A stretch of 64,000 bases of DNA, from NCBI RefSeq assembly GCF_013607485.1, contig NZ_SCHP01000003.1:1-64000 (forward strand). Direction: 5' to 3'. A program made the translations under genes and the position numbers. The first letter of the stretch is position 1. Each line of letters starts with the position of its first letter. This DNA comes from Bombilactobacillus bombi. Its GTDB lineage: Bacteria; Bacillota; Bacilli; Lactobacillales; Lactobacillaceae. The notes under the pieces were generated by a model. That model was given only the letters and a program-made list of their open reading frames with translations, was not told the DNA's origin and made no database searches. Below are positions 12,835-36,926 of the stretch, piece by piece.

Positions 12835-12916
12835 ATTTGTCATCATGATGATCCATAATTGCTACTACCAATAGTGCAAATGAAATCATCAGTGACAAAA
12901 CTTGAAAAGTACTCAA
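12833..12916 (-). CDS. Putative holin-like toxin, 27 residues (type I TA)
   Basis: A small ORF starting at TTG (12916) and ending at TAA (12833-12835). It reads LSTFQVLSLMISFALLVVA and then IMDHHDDK: one hydrophobic helix with a short charged tail. This matches the size and pattern of the putative holin-like toxins of Lactobacillales (pattern ALxLMxSFxxLxVAI). An AAAGG lies about 14 bases upstream. An AAGGAGG followed by a 12-codon ORF (12960 downward) lies further upstream and may couple translation. It converges on small RNA B and shares its terminator hairpin. The protein would insert in the membrane and depolarise the cell unless the RNA blocks its translation. Confidence 0.6.
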   Translation of the reverse strand: MSTFQVLSLMISFALLVVAIMDHHDDK

Positions 12917-13020
12917 GAGTGCTGTTATATCCTTTCATGAGTTTTCTTCCGTATCTTCATACGCAAGCACCTCCTTGAAGATCCAACAGCCACCGCCCAT
13001 AAAACTTCTTACCAAATTAT

Positions 13021-13046
13021 TATATCATAGCTCTATGATAACTCTG
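13021..13046 (-). promoter_or_regulatory. Toxin mRNA promoter with dyad TATCATAG-AG-CTATGATA
   Basis: On the minus strand, a -10 TATAAT (about 13017-13022) directly follows a perfect 8+8 dyad (13023-13040). The -35 is weak. The mRNA would start near 13010, giving a leader of about 95 bases before the toxin codon, long enough for RNA-based control. The dyad may be a protein operator. Confidence 0.45.
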
Positions 13047-13154: not shown

Positions 13155-13307
13155 CTTTCAAACAAAACCAGATATACTATAATGTAGATAAATAAAAGAG
13201 CTGGTGCTGTAACACCAACTCTTATGTAGAGCCGTTTTAAAGACGGTGACGCAATAACAGTTATTTAATAACCGCTAACTGGTCAAAGTCATGGCGGTTA
13301 TTTTTTT
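13155..13307 (+). ncRNA. Small structured RNA, copy C (orphan antitoxin-like)
   Basis: The same promoter block as A and B (-35 CTTTCA, -10 TATAAT at 13178-13183), hairpin 1 with a perfect stem GAGCTGGTG/CACCAACTC, hairpin 2 (GCCGT/ACGGT, loop TTTAAAG), and the terminator AATAACCGC/GCGGTTATT (13267-13302) nearly identical to copy A. Just after the terminator an IS30 remnant begins (13318), at the place where a convergent toxin would sit. The toxin may have been lost to the insertion. Confidence 0.6.
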
Positions 13308-32808: not shown

Positions 32809-34218
32809 TTAATCATGAGCCTTTTTTTGGTTTAAATTACTATGATTAATACTGTATGTCAAATAAATTACGATTCCAATCGCAAACCAGATAGCTGAAG
32901 CAATCCAGGTAATTTGTTTCAATTTAGTCATCAAGTAAAGACATAAAATTAGCGAAATAATCGGCAAAACTGGGTATAATGGTACCTTAAAACCGTCATT
33001 TTTAATATCTTGGCGTTTTCGTAAAGGTACAACTCCAATCGAAACAAAAGCAAAGGCAATTAACGTTCCTATATTAACTAATTCAGCTAACTGGTTCAGA
33101 TTAATAAAGCCACCCATAACTGCGATGATAATGGTTACAACAATTAAACTATTATTAGGTAAATGCTTATCGTTAATGCTTCCTAAAAATTTCGGCAGCA
33201 AACCATCACGACCAATCGCATAAACCAGCCGAGAGCTACTATAAATCATAGTCACCATCATCGTAAACATACCAGCCATGGCTCCTACGGAAATGATACC
33301 CGCCACAGTATTCAAGTGGAAAAATTGCAGTGCAAAGGCCACAGGATCAGCAACATTTAATTTGGTATAAGGAACCATCCCGGTTAGAACAGTCGCGACC
33401 GCCATATACAAGATGGTTGCAACAATCAAAGTACCAATAATTCCAATAGGCAAATTCTTTTGTGGATTTTTAACTTCTGGTGCTGATGATGACACAGCAT
33501 CAAAACCAAGGTAGGCAAAGAAAACAGTCGAAGCACCAGTCAAAACACCGGAAGTTCCAAAGGGCATAAAAGGTGACCAATTCTTTGGTTTAACATAGAA
33601 AATTCCCACTGCAATAAAAATTGCAATAATCACAATCTTAATTACGACCATCCAGTCATTAATTTTCATAGAGCTTCTCATTCCCCGTGATAACATAGCC
33701 GAAATCAATAAAACAACAATCACGGCAACTAAGTTCACATAGGTATGCTGCTGCAAATTCAGTGGTCCGGAAATAGCTTGCGGCAAACTAATGCCAAAGC
33801 CTTTCAAAAAAGCACTAAAGTAAGCAGAAAATCCTACAGAAACTGTCGCGACCGCTAACATATATTCCAAAATGAGGGCCCAACCAATAATCCACCCAAT
33901 CAACTGTCCAAAAACAATATTCCCATAAGAATAAGCACTACCAGCAACTGGCAAGGCAGAAGCAAATTCTGCATAGCACATAGCCGCTGTTGCACACACA
34001 ACTGCCGCTATCAAAAAGCTCAAAATAACTCCGGGGCCACTAACAGTTGCAGCCACAGTTCCGGGTAAAATAAATATTCCTGTTCCGATAACTGCGCCAA
34101 TCCCTAAGGCCATTAGATCTTTAGCACGCAGTGTCTTTTGAAAATGTACGTCTTCTCGCAAATATTGTTGTACATCGGCCTTTTGTGTAATTTTCTGCCA
34201 GATTGACACAAGCATCAT
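32809..34218 (-). CDS. APC-superfamily amino acid permease (YfnA/CAT-like)
   Basis: A 469-residue permease with about 12-13 helices. KDLMALGIGAVIGTGIFILPG is the APC substrate-binding helix 1; CYAEFASALPVAGSAYSYG and FFAYLGFDAVSSSAPEVKNP are typical of the cationic amino-acid transporter (CAT) branch. Substrate cannot be assigned. The listed start is an ATG only 3 bases after AAAGGG; the GTG at 34209 has better spacing and may be the real start. Its promoter carries two dyads (34232-34271), so it appears regulated. Single gene. Confidence 0.9.
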   Translation of the reverse strand: MMLVSIWQKITQKADVQQYLREDVHFQKTLRAKDLMALGIGAVIGTGIFILPGTVAATVSGPGVILSFLIAAVVCATAAMCYAEFASALPVAGSAYSYGNIVFGQLIGWIIGWALILEYMLAVATVSVGFSAYFSAFLKGFGISLPQAISGPLNLQQHTYVNLVAVIVVLLISAMLSRGMRSSMKINDWMVVIKIVIIAIFIAVGIFYVKPKNWSPFMPFGTSGVLTGASTVFFAYLGFDAVSSSAPEVKNPQKNLPIGIIGTLIVATILYMAVATVLTGMVPYTKLNVADPVAFALQFFHLNTVAGIISVGAMAGMFTMMVTMIYSSSRLVYAIGRDGLLPKFLGSINDKHLPNNSLIVVTIIIAVMGGFINLNQLAELVNIGTLIAFAFVSIGVVPLRKRQDIKNDGFKVPLYPVLPIISLILCLYLMTKLKQITWIASAIWFAIGIVIYLTYSINHSNLNQKKAHD

Positions 34219-34421: not shown

Positions 34422-34450
34422 TTGACATTTACCGGTTAGATATATTAAAT
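34422..34450 (+). promoter_or_regulatory. Promoter of the attenuator-controlled aminotransferase operon
   Basis: A consensus -35 TTGACA (34422-34427), 17-base spacer and -10 TTAAAT (34445-34450). The transcript would begin near 34457, giving a leader of about 290 bases before the aminotransferase ATG. Confidence 0.75.
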
Positions 34451-34485
34451 TAGAGACAATTCAATTTAAGTCAGGAGAAATCATT

Positions 34486-34545
34486 ATGTTAAATCTTCAA
34501 GTTCGACAATTGAATGCGTATTATTACTTTCGTTTCTTTAGTTAG
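34486..34545 (+). CDS. Tyr/Phe-rich leader peptide, 19 residues
   Basis: ATG at 34486 with AGGAG 8 bases upstream, ending at TAG 34543-34545. The product is MLNLQVRQLNAYYYFRFFS. Codons 12-18 are three Tyr, Phe, Arg and two Phe. It lies between a good promoter and a terminator in the leader of an aromatic-type aminotransferase operon. The Tyr/Phe codons form part of an RNA stem (34527-34537 with 34599-34609). The composition and place are those of an attenuation leader peptide, where ribosome stalling for lack of charged tRNA-Tyr or tRNA-Phe changes RNA folding. The peptide itself needs no function. Confidence 0.82.
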   Translation: MLNLQVRQLNAYYYFRFFS

Positions 34546-34727
34546 TGTTTGTACTCAATCATATGGGTGCAAACACCAGACAAGTGTTTGACACCTGTAG
34601 GAACGAAAGCTTATTTACTTGAGTAAACTTCGACCTAACAGGTTCAAGAAAATCTGCTAGGCCGCTATCATAATTAAACTTAAAGTAGCCCAACAGATTT
34701 TCTTAAAACAAATCTGTTGGGTTTTTT
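34527..34727 (+). promoter_or_regulatory. Ribosome-mediated attenuator with antiterminator and terminator
   Basis: Four pairings can be drawn. Segment 1 (GTGTTTGTAC, 34545-34554) pairs with segment 2 (GTGCAAACAC, 34567-34576). Segment 2 (34566-34576) can instead pair with segment 3 (34584-34595). An outer stem joins the Tyr/Phe codons to 34599-34609 (11 pairs). Downstream, 34646-34656 (AAGAAAATCTG) pairs perfectly with 34694-34704, which is the left arm of a perfect 12-bp terminator (34689-34700 with 34710-34721, then six T). Antiterminator and terminator therefore exclude each other. No T-box consensus is present. How the upstream switch is passed to the antiterminator is not clear from the sequence alone. 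Confidence 0.7.
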
Positions 34728-34749
34728 ATTTGGAAAGGATGGAATTATT

Positions 34750-35922
34750 ATGCAAATGAACCAATATCTTAATCATCAACTCAGCCAAGTCAAGCCTTCA
34801 GCAATTTTGGCCTTCTCTATGTTCGCTAACAAAATTGAGAATGTCGTGAAATTCACTCTCGGTGAACCCGACTTTAATACACCTGAGCATATCAAACAGG
34901 CTGCAATCACCAGCATTCAAGATAATCACTCACACTATGCGCCTAGCAATGGTACCCAGCCATTACGCCAAGCTGCTTCAAATTTCTTAGCCAAAAAATA
35001 TGACCAGCATTATGCTCCTGAAGAAATTATTGTCACTGCTGGCGCTACTGAAGGTATTTATACTGCAGTCATGTCGGTTTTAAATCCTGGAGATAAGGTA
35101 ATTATTCCTACACCAACATTTCCTTTATACATTGCTGATACTATCTTAGCTGGCGGACAGCCTATCTTAGTTGATACTTCCAGCAATAACTTTAAATTAT
35201 CACCACAAATGTTAAAGCAAGCAATCCAAGATGCTGGTTCTGGCGTGAGATTAGTCATCTTAAATTACCCTAGCAATCCAACAGGTGTTACTTATACCCA
35301 AAAAGAATTAGATGGTTTGGCGGCAGTCCTCAAAGATCAACCAATCTTTGTCCTCTGTGATGAAATATATAGTGAATTAAATTATGACGGACCACATGCC
35401 AGTTTATCCAAAAGCCTGCATGAGCAAGTGATTTTAGTTACTGGTGTCTCCAAGTCACATGCCATGACTGGTTGGCGCATTGGTTTGCTCTGTGCACCTC
35501 AAGCAATTACTGATGAACTTAGCAAAATCCATCAATTCACCATTACTTCAGCAGCCACAGTCACACAAGATGCCGCTGCAGAAGCTTTACAAAATGGCCA
35601 AGATGATGCCATTCCTATGCGTCAGCAATACCAAAAACGCCGTGATTACATCGTCGAACAAATGAGTCAAATGGGCTTTGACTGTGCAACACCTAGTGGC
35701 GCATTTTACATTTTTGCTCATATTCCGTCTGATTTAGATCAAGATGACGATCGTTTTGCTCATGACTTAGCTACCAATGGCCAAGTTGCTGCAGTTCCCG
35801 GTTCCTACTTTGGACCTGGTGGCGCTGGCTATCTAAGATTTAGTTACGCTACCAGTATGGAAGAAATCCAACGCGGTATGCAGCTGATGCAAACTTACGT
35901 CCAAAAGCAACGCCAAAAATAA
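34750..35922 (+). CDS. PLP-dependent class I aminotransferase (aromatic/aspartate type)
   Basis: A 390-residue fold-type I aminotransferase. VVKFTLGEPDFNTPEHIK, SHYAPSNGTQPLRQAA, ILNYPSNPTGVTYT, FVLCDEIYSEL and VTGVSKSHAMTGWRIG (PLP Lys) are the standard motifs, and RFSYATS holds the Arg that binds the substrate carboxylate. This group in lactobacilli includes AraT, which moves amino groups between aromatic amino acids and 2-oxoglutarate. The Tyr/Phe leader peptide and the adjoining hydroxyacid dehydrogenase support an aromatic substrate; that is inference. Start at ATG 34750, 16 bases after GGAAAGG; an earlier in-frame codon (34717) is inside the terminator and is rejected. Operon with the next gene. 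Confidence 0.88.
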   Translation: MQMNQYLNHQLSQVKPSAILAFSMFANKIENVVKFTLGEPDFNTPEHIKQAAITSIQDNHSHYAPSNGTQPLRQAASNFLAKKYDQHYAPEEIIVTAGATEGIYTAVMSVLNPGDKVIIPTPTFPLYIADTILAGGQPILVDTSSNNFKLSPQMLKQAIQDAGSGVRLVILNYPSNPTGVTYTQKELDGLAAVLKDQPIFVLCDEIYSELNYDGPHASLSKSLHEQVILVTGVSKSHAMTGWRIGLLCAPQAITDELSKIHQFTITSAATVTQDAAAEALQNGQDDAIPMRQQYQKRRDYIVEQMSQMGFDCATPSGAFYIFAHIPSDLDQDDDRFAHDLATNGQVAAVPGSYFGPGGAGYLRFSYATSMEEIQRGMQLMQTYVQKQRQK

Positions 35923-35936
35923 GGAGGAGTTAAACA

Positions 35937-36926
35937 ATGAAATTAATTTTACTTAGTGTACGTGATGATGAATTACCAGCCATTAAACAATGGCAAGCCC
36001 GCCACTCTGATATTAAAGTACAAACTGCCAATTGGGAACTACATCCTGATACCGTTCAACGCTTGCAAGGCTTTGACGGTGTGATTGCACAACAGCGGAG
36101 TCAAATTGAAGATGAAGTTTACCCACAATTAAAAGAATTAGGTTTCAAACAGTTAACAACACGAACTGCCGGCTTTGACGTGATTAACTTACCACTAGCG
36201 ACTGCTAATGGACTAAAAGTCAGCAATGTTCCTGCTTACTCGCCCCATTCAGTGGCTGAATTAGCCCTAACTCATACTATGCGCTTAATTCGGCAATTAC
36301 CACTTTTTGATGCCCGTATGGCTCAGCAAGATTTTCGCTGGCAAGGGCTACAAGCCAAAGAAATTAGCTCTTTAACCATTGGTATCATTGGAGCTGGACG
36401 CATTGGCAGCACCACTGCTAAAATCTTCCATACTTTAGGTGCCAAAGTAATCGCCAACGATACCAAGCCCAATCATGACTTAGATGCTATCTTAACCTTC
36501 AAAAGTAAGGAAGAAGTATTACAAGAATCAGATGTTGTCTGCTTACATGTCGACTTAAACGAAACTTCTAAAAATTTAATTGACGCTAAAGCCCTCAGCC
36601 TCATGAAGTCAAGTGCTTACATCGTCAATGAGTGCCGGGGACCCGTTATTGACACCGATGCTTTAATTGCAGCTTTAAAGAAAAAACAGATTGCTGGTGC
36701 AGCTTTAGATACTTTGACTGGTGAAGAGAACTTCTTTAATGTTGATCTACACGGTCAAGAACTCCCTAGTGAGCAATTAAAGCAACTACGTGCCATGGAT
36801 AATGTCATTATTACCCCACATATCGGATTTTACACCAATATTGCTGTGCAAAATATGATCGATATTAGCCTCGATGATGCCGTTCAATTGATTAAAGATC
36901 AGCCTTGCGAACATGTGTTGAACTAG
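35937..36926 (+). CDS. D-2-hydroxyacid dehydrogenase (D-HicDH/D-LDH family)
   Basis: A 329-residue NAD-dependent dehydrogenase that reduces 2-oxoacids to D-hydroxyacids. TRTAGFDVINLP, YSPHSVAELALTHTMRLIR, the Rossmann motif GIIGAGRIGSTTAKIF, NECRGPVID (catalytic Arg), ALDTLTGEE (Glu) and ITPHIGFYT (His) are present and typical of the D-lactate/D-hydroxyisocaproate branch. It lies 14 bases after the aminotransferase with GGAGG between, in the same operon. Together they would convert aromatic (or branched) amino acids to 2-oxoacids and then to hydroxyacids such as phenyllactate or hydroxyphenyllactate, reoxidising NADH. The substrate is inferred from context. Confidence 0.88.
   Translation: MKLILLSVRDDELPAIKQWQARHSDIKVQTANWELHPDTVQRLQGFDGVIAQQRSQIEDEVYPQLKELGFKQLTTRTAGFDVINLPLATANGLKVSNVPAYSPHSVAELALTHTMRLIRQLPLFDARMAQQDFRWQGLQAKEISSLTIGIIGAGRIGSTTAKIFHTLGAKVIANDTKPNHDLDAILTFKSKEEVLQESDVVCLHVDLNETSKNLIDAKALSLMKSSAYIVNECRGPVIDTDALIAALKKKQIAGAALDTLTGEENFFNVDLHGQELPSEQLKQLRAMDNVIITPHIGFYTNIAVQNMIDISLDDAVQLIKDQPCEHVLN

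Follow-up and report, generated by a model that had tools for sequence, protein, structure and literature searches.

What is the leader that precedes an aminotransferase and hydroxyacid dehydrogenase operon in Bombilactobacillus bombi, and does it serve the breakdown of aromatic amino acids or their supply? The locus lies in a 64,000-nucleotide stretch of contig NZ_SCHP01000003.1, which we call the window. An initial annotation had proposed a leader-peptide attenuator for Tyr and Phe upstream of this operon. The conservation of the leader, its reading frame, its codons and the compensatory changes in its helices uphold this proposal. We consider it very likely that the leader is a ribosome-mediated transcription attenuator that reads the supply of Phe and Tyr, and that it belongs to a family found throughout the Lactobacillales.

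Anatomy of the leader

The first regulated gene (34750..35922; this and all features of the leader and operon lie on the forward strand) encodes a class I/II aminotransferase of the AraT-like type (PF00155, 1.8e-66). Its best NCBIfam match is PRK07309, with 511 bits, below the cut-off of 576 for that model. The second regulated gene (35937..36926) encodes a D-2-hydroxyacid dehydrogenase (PF02826/PF00389) that matches PDB 4xkj over its full length with 416 bits.

The promoter (34422..34451) had been described as a consensus promoter. This holds for its -35 element, TTGACA (34422-34427), and not for the -10 element at about 34445-34451, which is weak (TTAAAT/TAAATT, spacing 17-18). The 19-codon ORF that had been reported is present at 34486..34545, where it encodes MLNLQVRQLNAYYYFRFFS followed by a stop codon; reading the sequence places its Shine-Dalgarno motif, AGGAG (34473-34477), 8 nt before the ATG. 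The run Tyr-Tyr-Tyr-Phe-Arg-Phe-Phe, the putative sensing codons, occupies 34519..34539 and corresponds to positions that are aromatic in homologues at c1, c3, c5 and c6.

The RNA that surrounds these codons can form a chain of alternative helices. Segment 1 (34527..34541) lies inside the codons and pairs with 34595-34609, which gives the codon stem that had been noted before (CTTTCGTTTCTTTAG with CTGTAGGAACGAAAG, 11+3 pairs). Segment A (34545..34556) begins at the stop codon and pairs with segment B (34565..34576) in a 12-bp hairpin with the stop codon at its base. Segment B can instead pair with segment C (34566-34576 with 34584-34595). Segment C (34584..34609) has three possible partners: B through 34584-34595, segment 1 through 34595-34609, or segment D (34628..34644). 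Segment D can pair with C or with segment E (34646..34661), the antiterminator arm, and the D:E hairpin (34634-34644 with 34651-34661) hides that arm. When free, E can pair with the left arm of the terminator (AAGAAAATCTG, 34646-34656, with CAGATTTTCTT, 34694-34704). The intrinsic terminator itself (34689..34727) has arms at 34689-34700 and 34710-34721 that form 12 of 12 pairs, a 9-nt loop and a run of six T. Both the 11-base antiterminator arm and the perfect 12-bp terminator were thus described correctly. The A:B, B:C and D:E pairings had been overlooked, and the three-segment switch that had been suggested is part of the chain but is too simple; the full chain consists of 1:C, A:B, B:C, C:D, D:E, E:terminator-left and the terminator, with at least five mutually exclusive pairings. 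The leader as a whole (34454-34732) folds at -75.8 kcal/mol, compared with -50.4 +/- 4.8 for shuffled sequences (z = -5.35; 0 of 200 shuffles as stable).

Distribution of the family

Comparison with relatives had been suggested as a check on the attenuator, and the peptide and the stems are conserved. Relatives of the leader, both in the genus and in other families of the order, came from a blastn-type search, and 12 of them served to build a covariance model. In the order, this model found the leader in 236 of 395 genomes and in 59 of 80 genera; the family gave 116 of 350 genomes and the genus 6 of 7. Within a class-wide sample, five genomes outside the order also matched, and leaders of the same type precede aromatic genes there too. 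The aminotransferase version is present, among others, in species of Weissella, Liquorilactobacillus, Lactiplantibacillus and Sporolactobacillus, to which a motif scan added Agrilactobacillus, Secundilactobacillus, Lentilactobacillus, Loigolactobacillus and Pediococcus.

Evidence for a translated leader

From the family we chose 162 diverse loci. The frame of the leader ORF relative to the RNA is identical in 159 of them, the start codon is ATG in 161, and 155 have an SD-like motif under a permissive pattern. In 159 of 162 loci, TTGAC lies no more than 110 nt before the start of the leader, compared with 17 of 162 after shuffling, and at a narrow range of distances (median 62 nt, 10th-90th percentile 58-69 nt). 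A translatable ORF under selection, with its Shine-Dalgarno motif and start codon, is what a leader-peptide attenuator calls for.

The codons point in the same direction. Among 138 distinct homologues, the residue is aromatic at c1 in 128, at c3 in 135, at c5 in 130 and at c6 in 126, and c1 is Phe in 64 and Tyr in 64. Between the aromatic positions, c4 drifts among Ser, Trp, Arg, Tyr, Gly and Ala. Cognate codons therefore stand at the switching point (126-135 of 138), where a ribosome on c0-c5 frees C:D in the folding calculations below. A test of synonymous change gave 28.6%, 14.4% and 23.9% for frames 0, 1 and 2; it is not decisive, since the codons are part of a helix as well and Phe and Tyr replace each other.

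Could the peptide act through its sequence instead? A conditional arrest peptide, in which a nascent QLN..YYF chain stalls the ribosome on free Phe or Tyr, another metabolite or an antibiotic, would account for two features of the peptides: QLN (window 34507-34515) directly precedes the aromatic block in 78 of 147 distinct sequences, and Arg stands before the stop codon in 87 of 138. We find it very unlikely. The N-termini are free in sequence and in length (13-27 aa), the stop codon shifts by up to 4 codons, and Phe and Tyr interchange to the point that Phe-only and Tyr-only variants exist; nor does any observation suggest an antibiotic as the signal. The conservation of QLN can be explained, though only in part, by its pairing with the 5' end and SD region (-6.07 for own, -4.82 for swapped partners), where compensation is weak. 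A hybrid of attenuator and arrest peptide across the order, in which the nascent QLN and aromatic block would itself pause the ribosome and be tuned by aromatic supply, seems to us quite unlikely. The reading as a translated leader peptide whose codons are sensed is strongly supported.

Compensatory changes in the helices

The codon stem and its partner change together. Segment 1 pairs with its own C at -13.4 kcal/mol and with a swapped C, taken from loci with another c4 codon, at -7.4 kcal/mol; the own partner was better in 146 of 149 loci. The choice of the c4 codon thus drifts together with its partner in C, and shuffle tests supported 1:C in 93% of loci. For A:B, 91.1% of cells are paired, double changes occur in 11 of 12 pairs and 0 of 500 shuffles did as well. 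For B:C, 92.7% of cells are paired in the same alignment, which was fitted to A:B and not to B:C, double changes occur in 7 of 10 pairs and 0 of 500 shuffles did as well on the main measures.

The later helices were judged locus by locus. Among 127 loci, C:D was better than shuffles (p<=0.05) in 50% and E:terminator-left in 54%. A hairpin with a U-run follows the leader in 161 of 162 loci, a count that has no shuffle control, and the automatic calls are flawed at some loci, such as L014 and L163. Mutually exclusive helices that end in a choice between terminator and antiterminator are present in the family. Together, the frame, the codons and the compensatory pairs, kept across many genera, confirm that the elements of the leader are beyond chance.

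Ribosome position and folding

We next consider how the position of a ribosome changes the fold. In the window leader, at the stage at which D:E has just been made, D:E is lost only when the A site holds one of codons 12-17 (Y Y Y F R F); at codons 8-11, 18, 19 or the stop codon it stays intact. These calculations assume a footprint of 12 nt past the first A-site base, and a shift of 3 nt moves the D:E-loss window by one codon. The family behaves similarly when D has just emerged: across 127 loci, C:D has a median of 4.1 pairs with no ribosome, about 11 with a ribosome at c3-c4 and 6.8 at the stop codon. At this early stage, the gain exceeds 2 pairs in 91 loci, and 5 loci show a loss; L003 and L092 form little C:D even then.

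Equilibrium folding gave a different picture. The full-length window transcript at equilibrium has the opposite outcome, with the terminator in the stalled states. In equilibrium folds of 153 loci, the accessibility of E before the terminator showed no dependence on ribosome position. When E was included, D:E changed as predicted in 17 of 127 loci and in the opposite way in 11, and D:E outcompetes C:D in most other loci, including the close relatives L002 and L003. Equilibrium folding was dropped as a family-wide test, as a clear pattern appears only at the co-transcriptional stage, when D has just been made. That stage was picked after the equilibrium tests had failed and is weaker as evidence for that reason. 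Because the equilibrium results are contrary, the attenuation model needs the order of folding during transcription. Reliance on this order is usual for attenuators. Along a direct path in the window leader, the barrier is about 9.3 kcal/mol from D:E to E:terminator-left and about 16.7 kcal/mol to leave E:terminator-left (from saddle values of -1.4 and -0.9 kcal/mol), and an early folding choice should therefore persist.

Target genes and the role of the operon

The genes under these leaders were classed by phmmer. As the 162 loci were picked for diversity, the following counts are not frequencies. The first gene encodes a TrpX-type ABC substrate-binding protein in 70 loci, an aminotransferase in 34 (with the hydroxyacid dehydrogenase next in 31) and AroE in 26 (with AroF next in all). 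An MFS-chorismate mutase fusion comes first in 9 loci, AroF in 5, transketolase in 4, an amino acid permease in 3, a PDT-like protein in 3, the dehydrogenase alone in 2, a PTS_EIIC_2 membrane protein in 2, AroC in 2 and AroB in 1; one is unassigned.

The codons of the leaders vary with these targets. The leaders of the three PDT-like genes (Phe branch) and of the permeases have almost no Tyr codons, and for the PDT-like genes this make-up fits the target. Among the TrpX leaders there are many of the Phe-only kind (FAFSFFFR) and a few of the Tyr-only kind (YYYSYYR). At L082-L089, all in one genus, tandem leaders that differ in their codons (YYYSYYR, FSFSFFR, FYFSYFR) precede TrpX paralogues that lie next to each other, which looks as though every binding protein were served by a separate amino acid sensor. 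A BcaP-like amino acid permease is encoded in the window at 32809-34218 on the reverse strand, divergent from the operon; at L118, L140 and L141, a homologous gene comes immediately after a Phe-rich leader of the family. The PTS_EIIC_2 (PF13303) membrane protein is found under the leader or 3' of the aminotransferase-dehydrogenase pair (L094, L095; L096, L100, L103) and could be what transports aromatic amino acids, keto acids or hydroxy acids.

The B. bombi genome has a second leader of the family, which encodes MENCLSSKNYYFGFAYFR before its stop codon and lies outside the window, at about 79203 on contig 98. It heads an operon for MFS-chorismate mutase, AroC, a PDT-like protein, AroA, TyrA and AroK, without a transaminase. 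The first of these genes (L299:15412-16851) encodes an MFS transporter with a C-terminal chorismate mutase (MFS_1 10-345, CM_2 393-470); homologues are the first gene at eight further loci, some apparently without the mutase part. The PDT-like protein, of about 175 aa, is encoded at L299:18023-18550 and also at L128, L134 and L135, under nearly Tyr-free leaders, and because of these leaders it is probably an enzyme of the Phe branch. Its match to prephenate dehydratase in NCBIfam is only marginal (E 0.0019, in L128), and the copy in the B. bombi genome has no Pfam match. We found no class I DAHP synthase (PF00793) in the genome, and AroE is present; the aromatic pathway may therefore begin from an imported intermediate.

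These genes bear on the purpose of the switch. The initial annotation had seen control of degradation rather than synthesis, with the leader governing the disposal of Phe and Tyr as phenyllactate. The second gene of the operon does belong to the phenyllactate-making class of D-2-hydroxyacid dehydrogenases and follows the aminotransferase in nearly all loci of this version. Other members of the family, however, precede genes for uptake and for the shikimate, chorismate mutase and PDT-like steps, the other copy in the same genome heads a chorismate-to-Phe/Tyr operon, and the predicted logic, read-through on starvation, is wrong for disposal. We therefore regard a catabolic switch as unlikely. 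Because the second-leader operon lacks a transaminase, the window operon most likely supplies, under a shared control, the last transamination of Phe and Tyr formation, or recovery from keto and hydroxy acids. This assignment is likely and not forced, since two other paralogues of the aminotransferase (50% and 44% identical) are encoded in the genome. On the simplest reading, the dehydrogenase would interconvert keto and hydroxy acids.

Relation to known systems

The leader resembles the trp, his and pheA attenuators of Enterobacteria, with a short ORF that contains cognate codons, mutually exclusive helices, a terminator before the operon and a stop codon at the switching helix. It differs from them in its longer chain (1:C, A:B, B:C, C:D, D:E, E:terminator) and in reading Phe and Tyr together; the likeness drawn here is one of design. 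Leader-peptide attenuation is known in some other Firmicutes too (PMC2965389, PMC9413887). The uORFC-13-1 motif, found only in Acholeplasma, likewise combines a predicted Phe-coding uORF with a terminator before a DAHP synthase gene (aroF), a likeness drawn from its description (PMC8632094). The Trp T-box of trpXYZ in Streptococcus suis also senses tRNA charging and controls a paralogous ABC transporter, but it is a Trp-specific T-box RNA without a leader peptide (PMC9382623). No T-box covariance model matched at or near the window leader, and Rfam found no T-box beside the leaders examined in Streptococcus-like loci or at aminotransferase loci that lack the leader.

Pieces of the family have been reported under other names. 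The gbs2033 element of Streptococcus agalactiae is a Lactobacillales-wide RNA of about 270 nt that ends in a terminator, precedes paralogous ABC transporters and aroFBC-tyrA of Enterococcus faecium, and gave a short and a long transcript in RNA-seq, according to the available part of PMC4448216. We matched it to our family only by its target genes, by its size and by way of the Rfam model for its relative in E. faecium. The same part of that paper names the element a new riboswitch and mentions no leader peptide. An RNA that directly binds an aromatic amino acid or a precursor would agree with the conserved structure. We nevertheless regard this as highly improbable. What is conserved best is an ORF, with a fixed frame, an ATG, an SD motif and aromatic codons that swap Phe for Tyr; the helices exclude one another and depend on where the ribosome stands; and no conserved unpaired binding core was seen in the leaders. 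This evidence, which is indirect, favours a translated leader over a metabolite-binding riboswitch.

The Rfam family is RF02863, sRNA_2410 of E. faecium, which was among the sRNAs measured under daptomycin (PMC5593968, available part). Its model starts inside the leader codons and omits most of the ORF, and it is filed as an sRNA of unknown role. The member of our family at L014 scores 67.3, above the gathering score of 61; the window leader scores 40.8 bits against 61, and is related to RF02863 without being a member by Rfam's rule. Elsewhere in the window, Rfam matches above the gathering score were obtained for rli28 (12846-13034, reverse strand) and for RatA, an RNA antitoxin (13180-13270, forward strand). 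The leader peptide was not recognised in the available parts of PMC4448216 and PMC5593968, and a search of the full-text literature that covered the peptide motifs as well as leader peptides in such settings, with subscription papers outside its scope, found no earlier recognition. Leader-peptide attenuation is a known kind of control; the Tyr/Phe family of the Lactobacillales was previously unrecognised in the literature searched.

Discussion

We propose a model for how this leader regulates the operon. From the codons and the helices we infer that the leader responds to Phe and Tyr and that tRNA charging is the signal. If charged tRNA-Phe or tRNA-Tyr were short, the ribosome would wait on the YYYFRF codons. 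The waiting ribosome would cover segment 1 and leave A:B intact, so that C could pair with D once D was made. Formation of C:D would leave E free to pair with the left arm of the terminator, and transcription would read through into the aminotransferase and dehydrogenase genes. Conversely, if Phe and Tyr were plentiful, the ribosome would reach the stop codon and cover A, which would allow B:C, then D:E and the terminator to form. With no ribosome, segment 1 would pair with C and termination would be expected as well. The sign of this response, read-through on starvation, rests partly on the biology of the target genes.

The family gives a testable identity to a reported class of aromatic amino acid riboswitches and to an Rfam sRNA, as both appear to be pieces of one attenuator family. 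The codon make-up of the leaders (Phe-only, Tyr-only, mixed, or with Trp) offers a prediction of substrate for transporters that are all labelled 'tryptophan'. The model would also link the phenyllactate-type dehydrogenase of lactic-acid bacteria to starvation for aromatic amino acids. Last, an order known mainly for its T-boxes appears to use ribosome-mediated attenuation widely as well, for the uptake and synthesis of Phe and Tyr.
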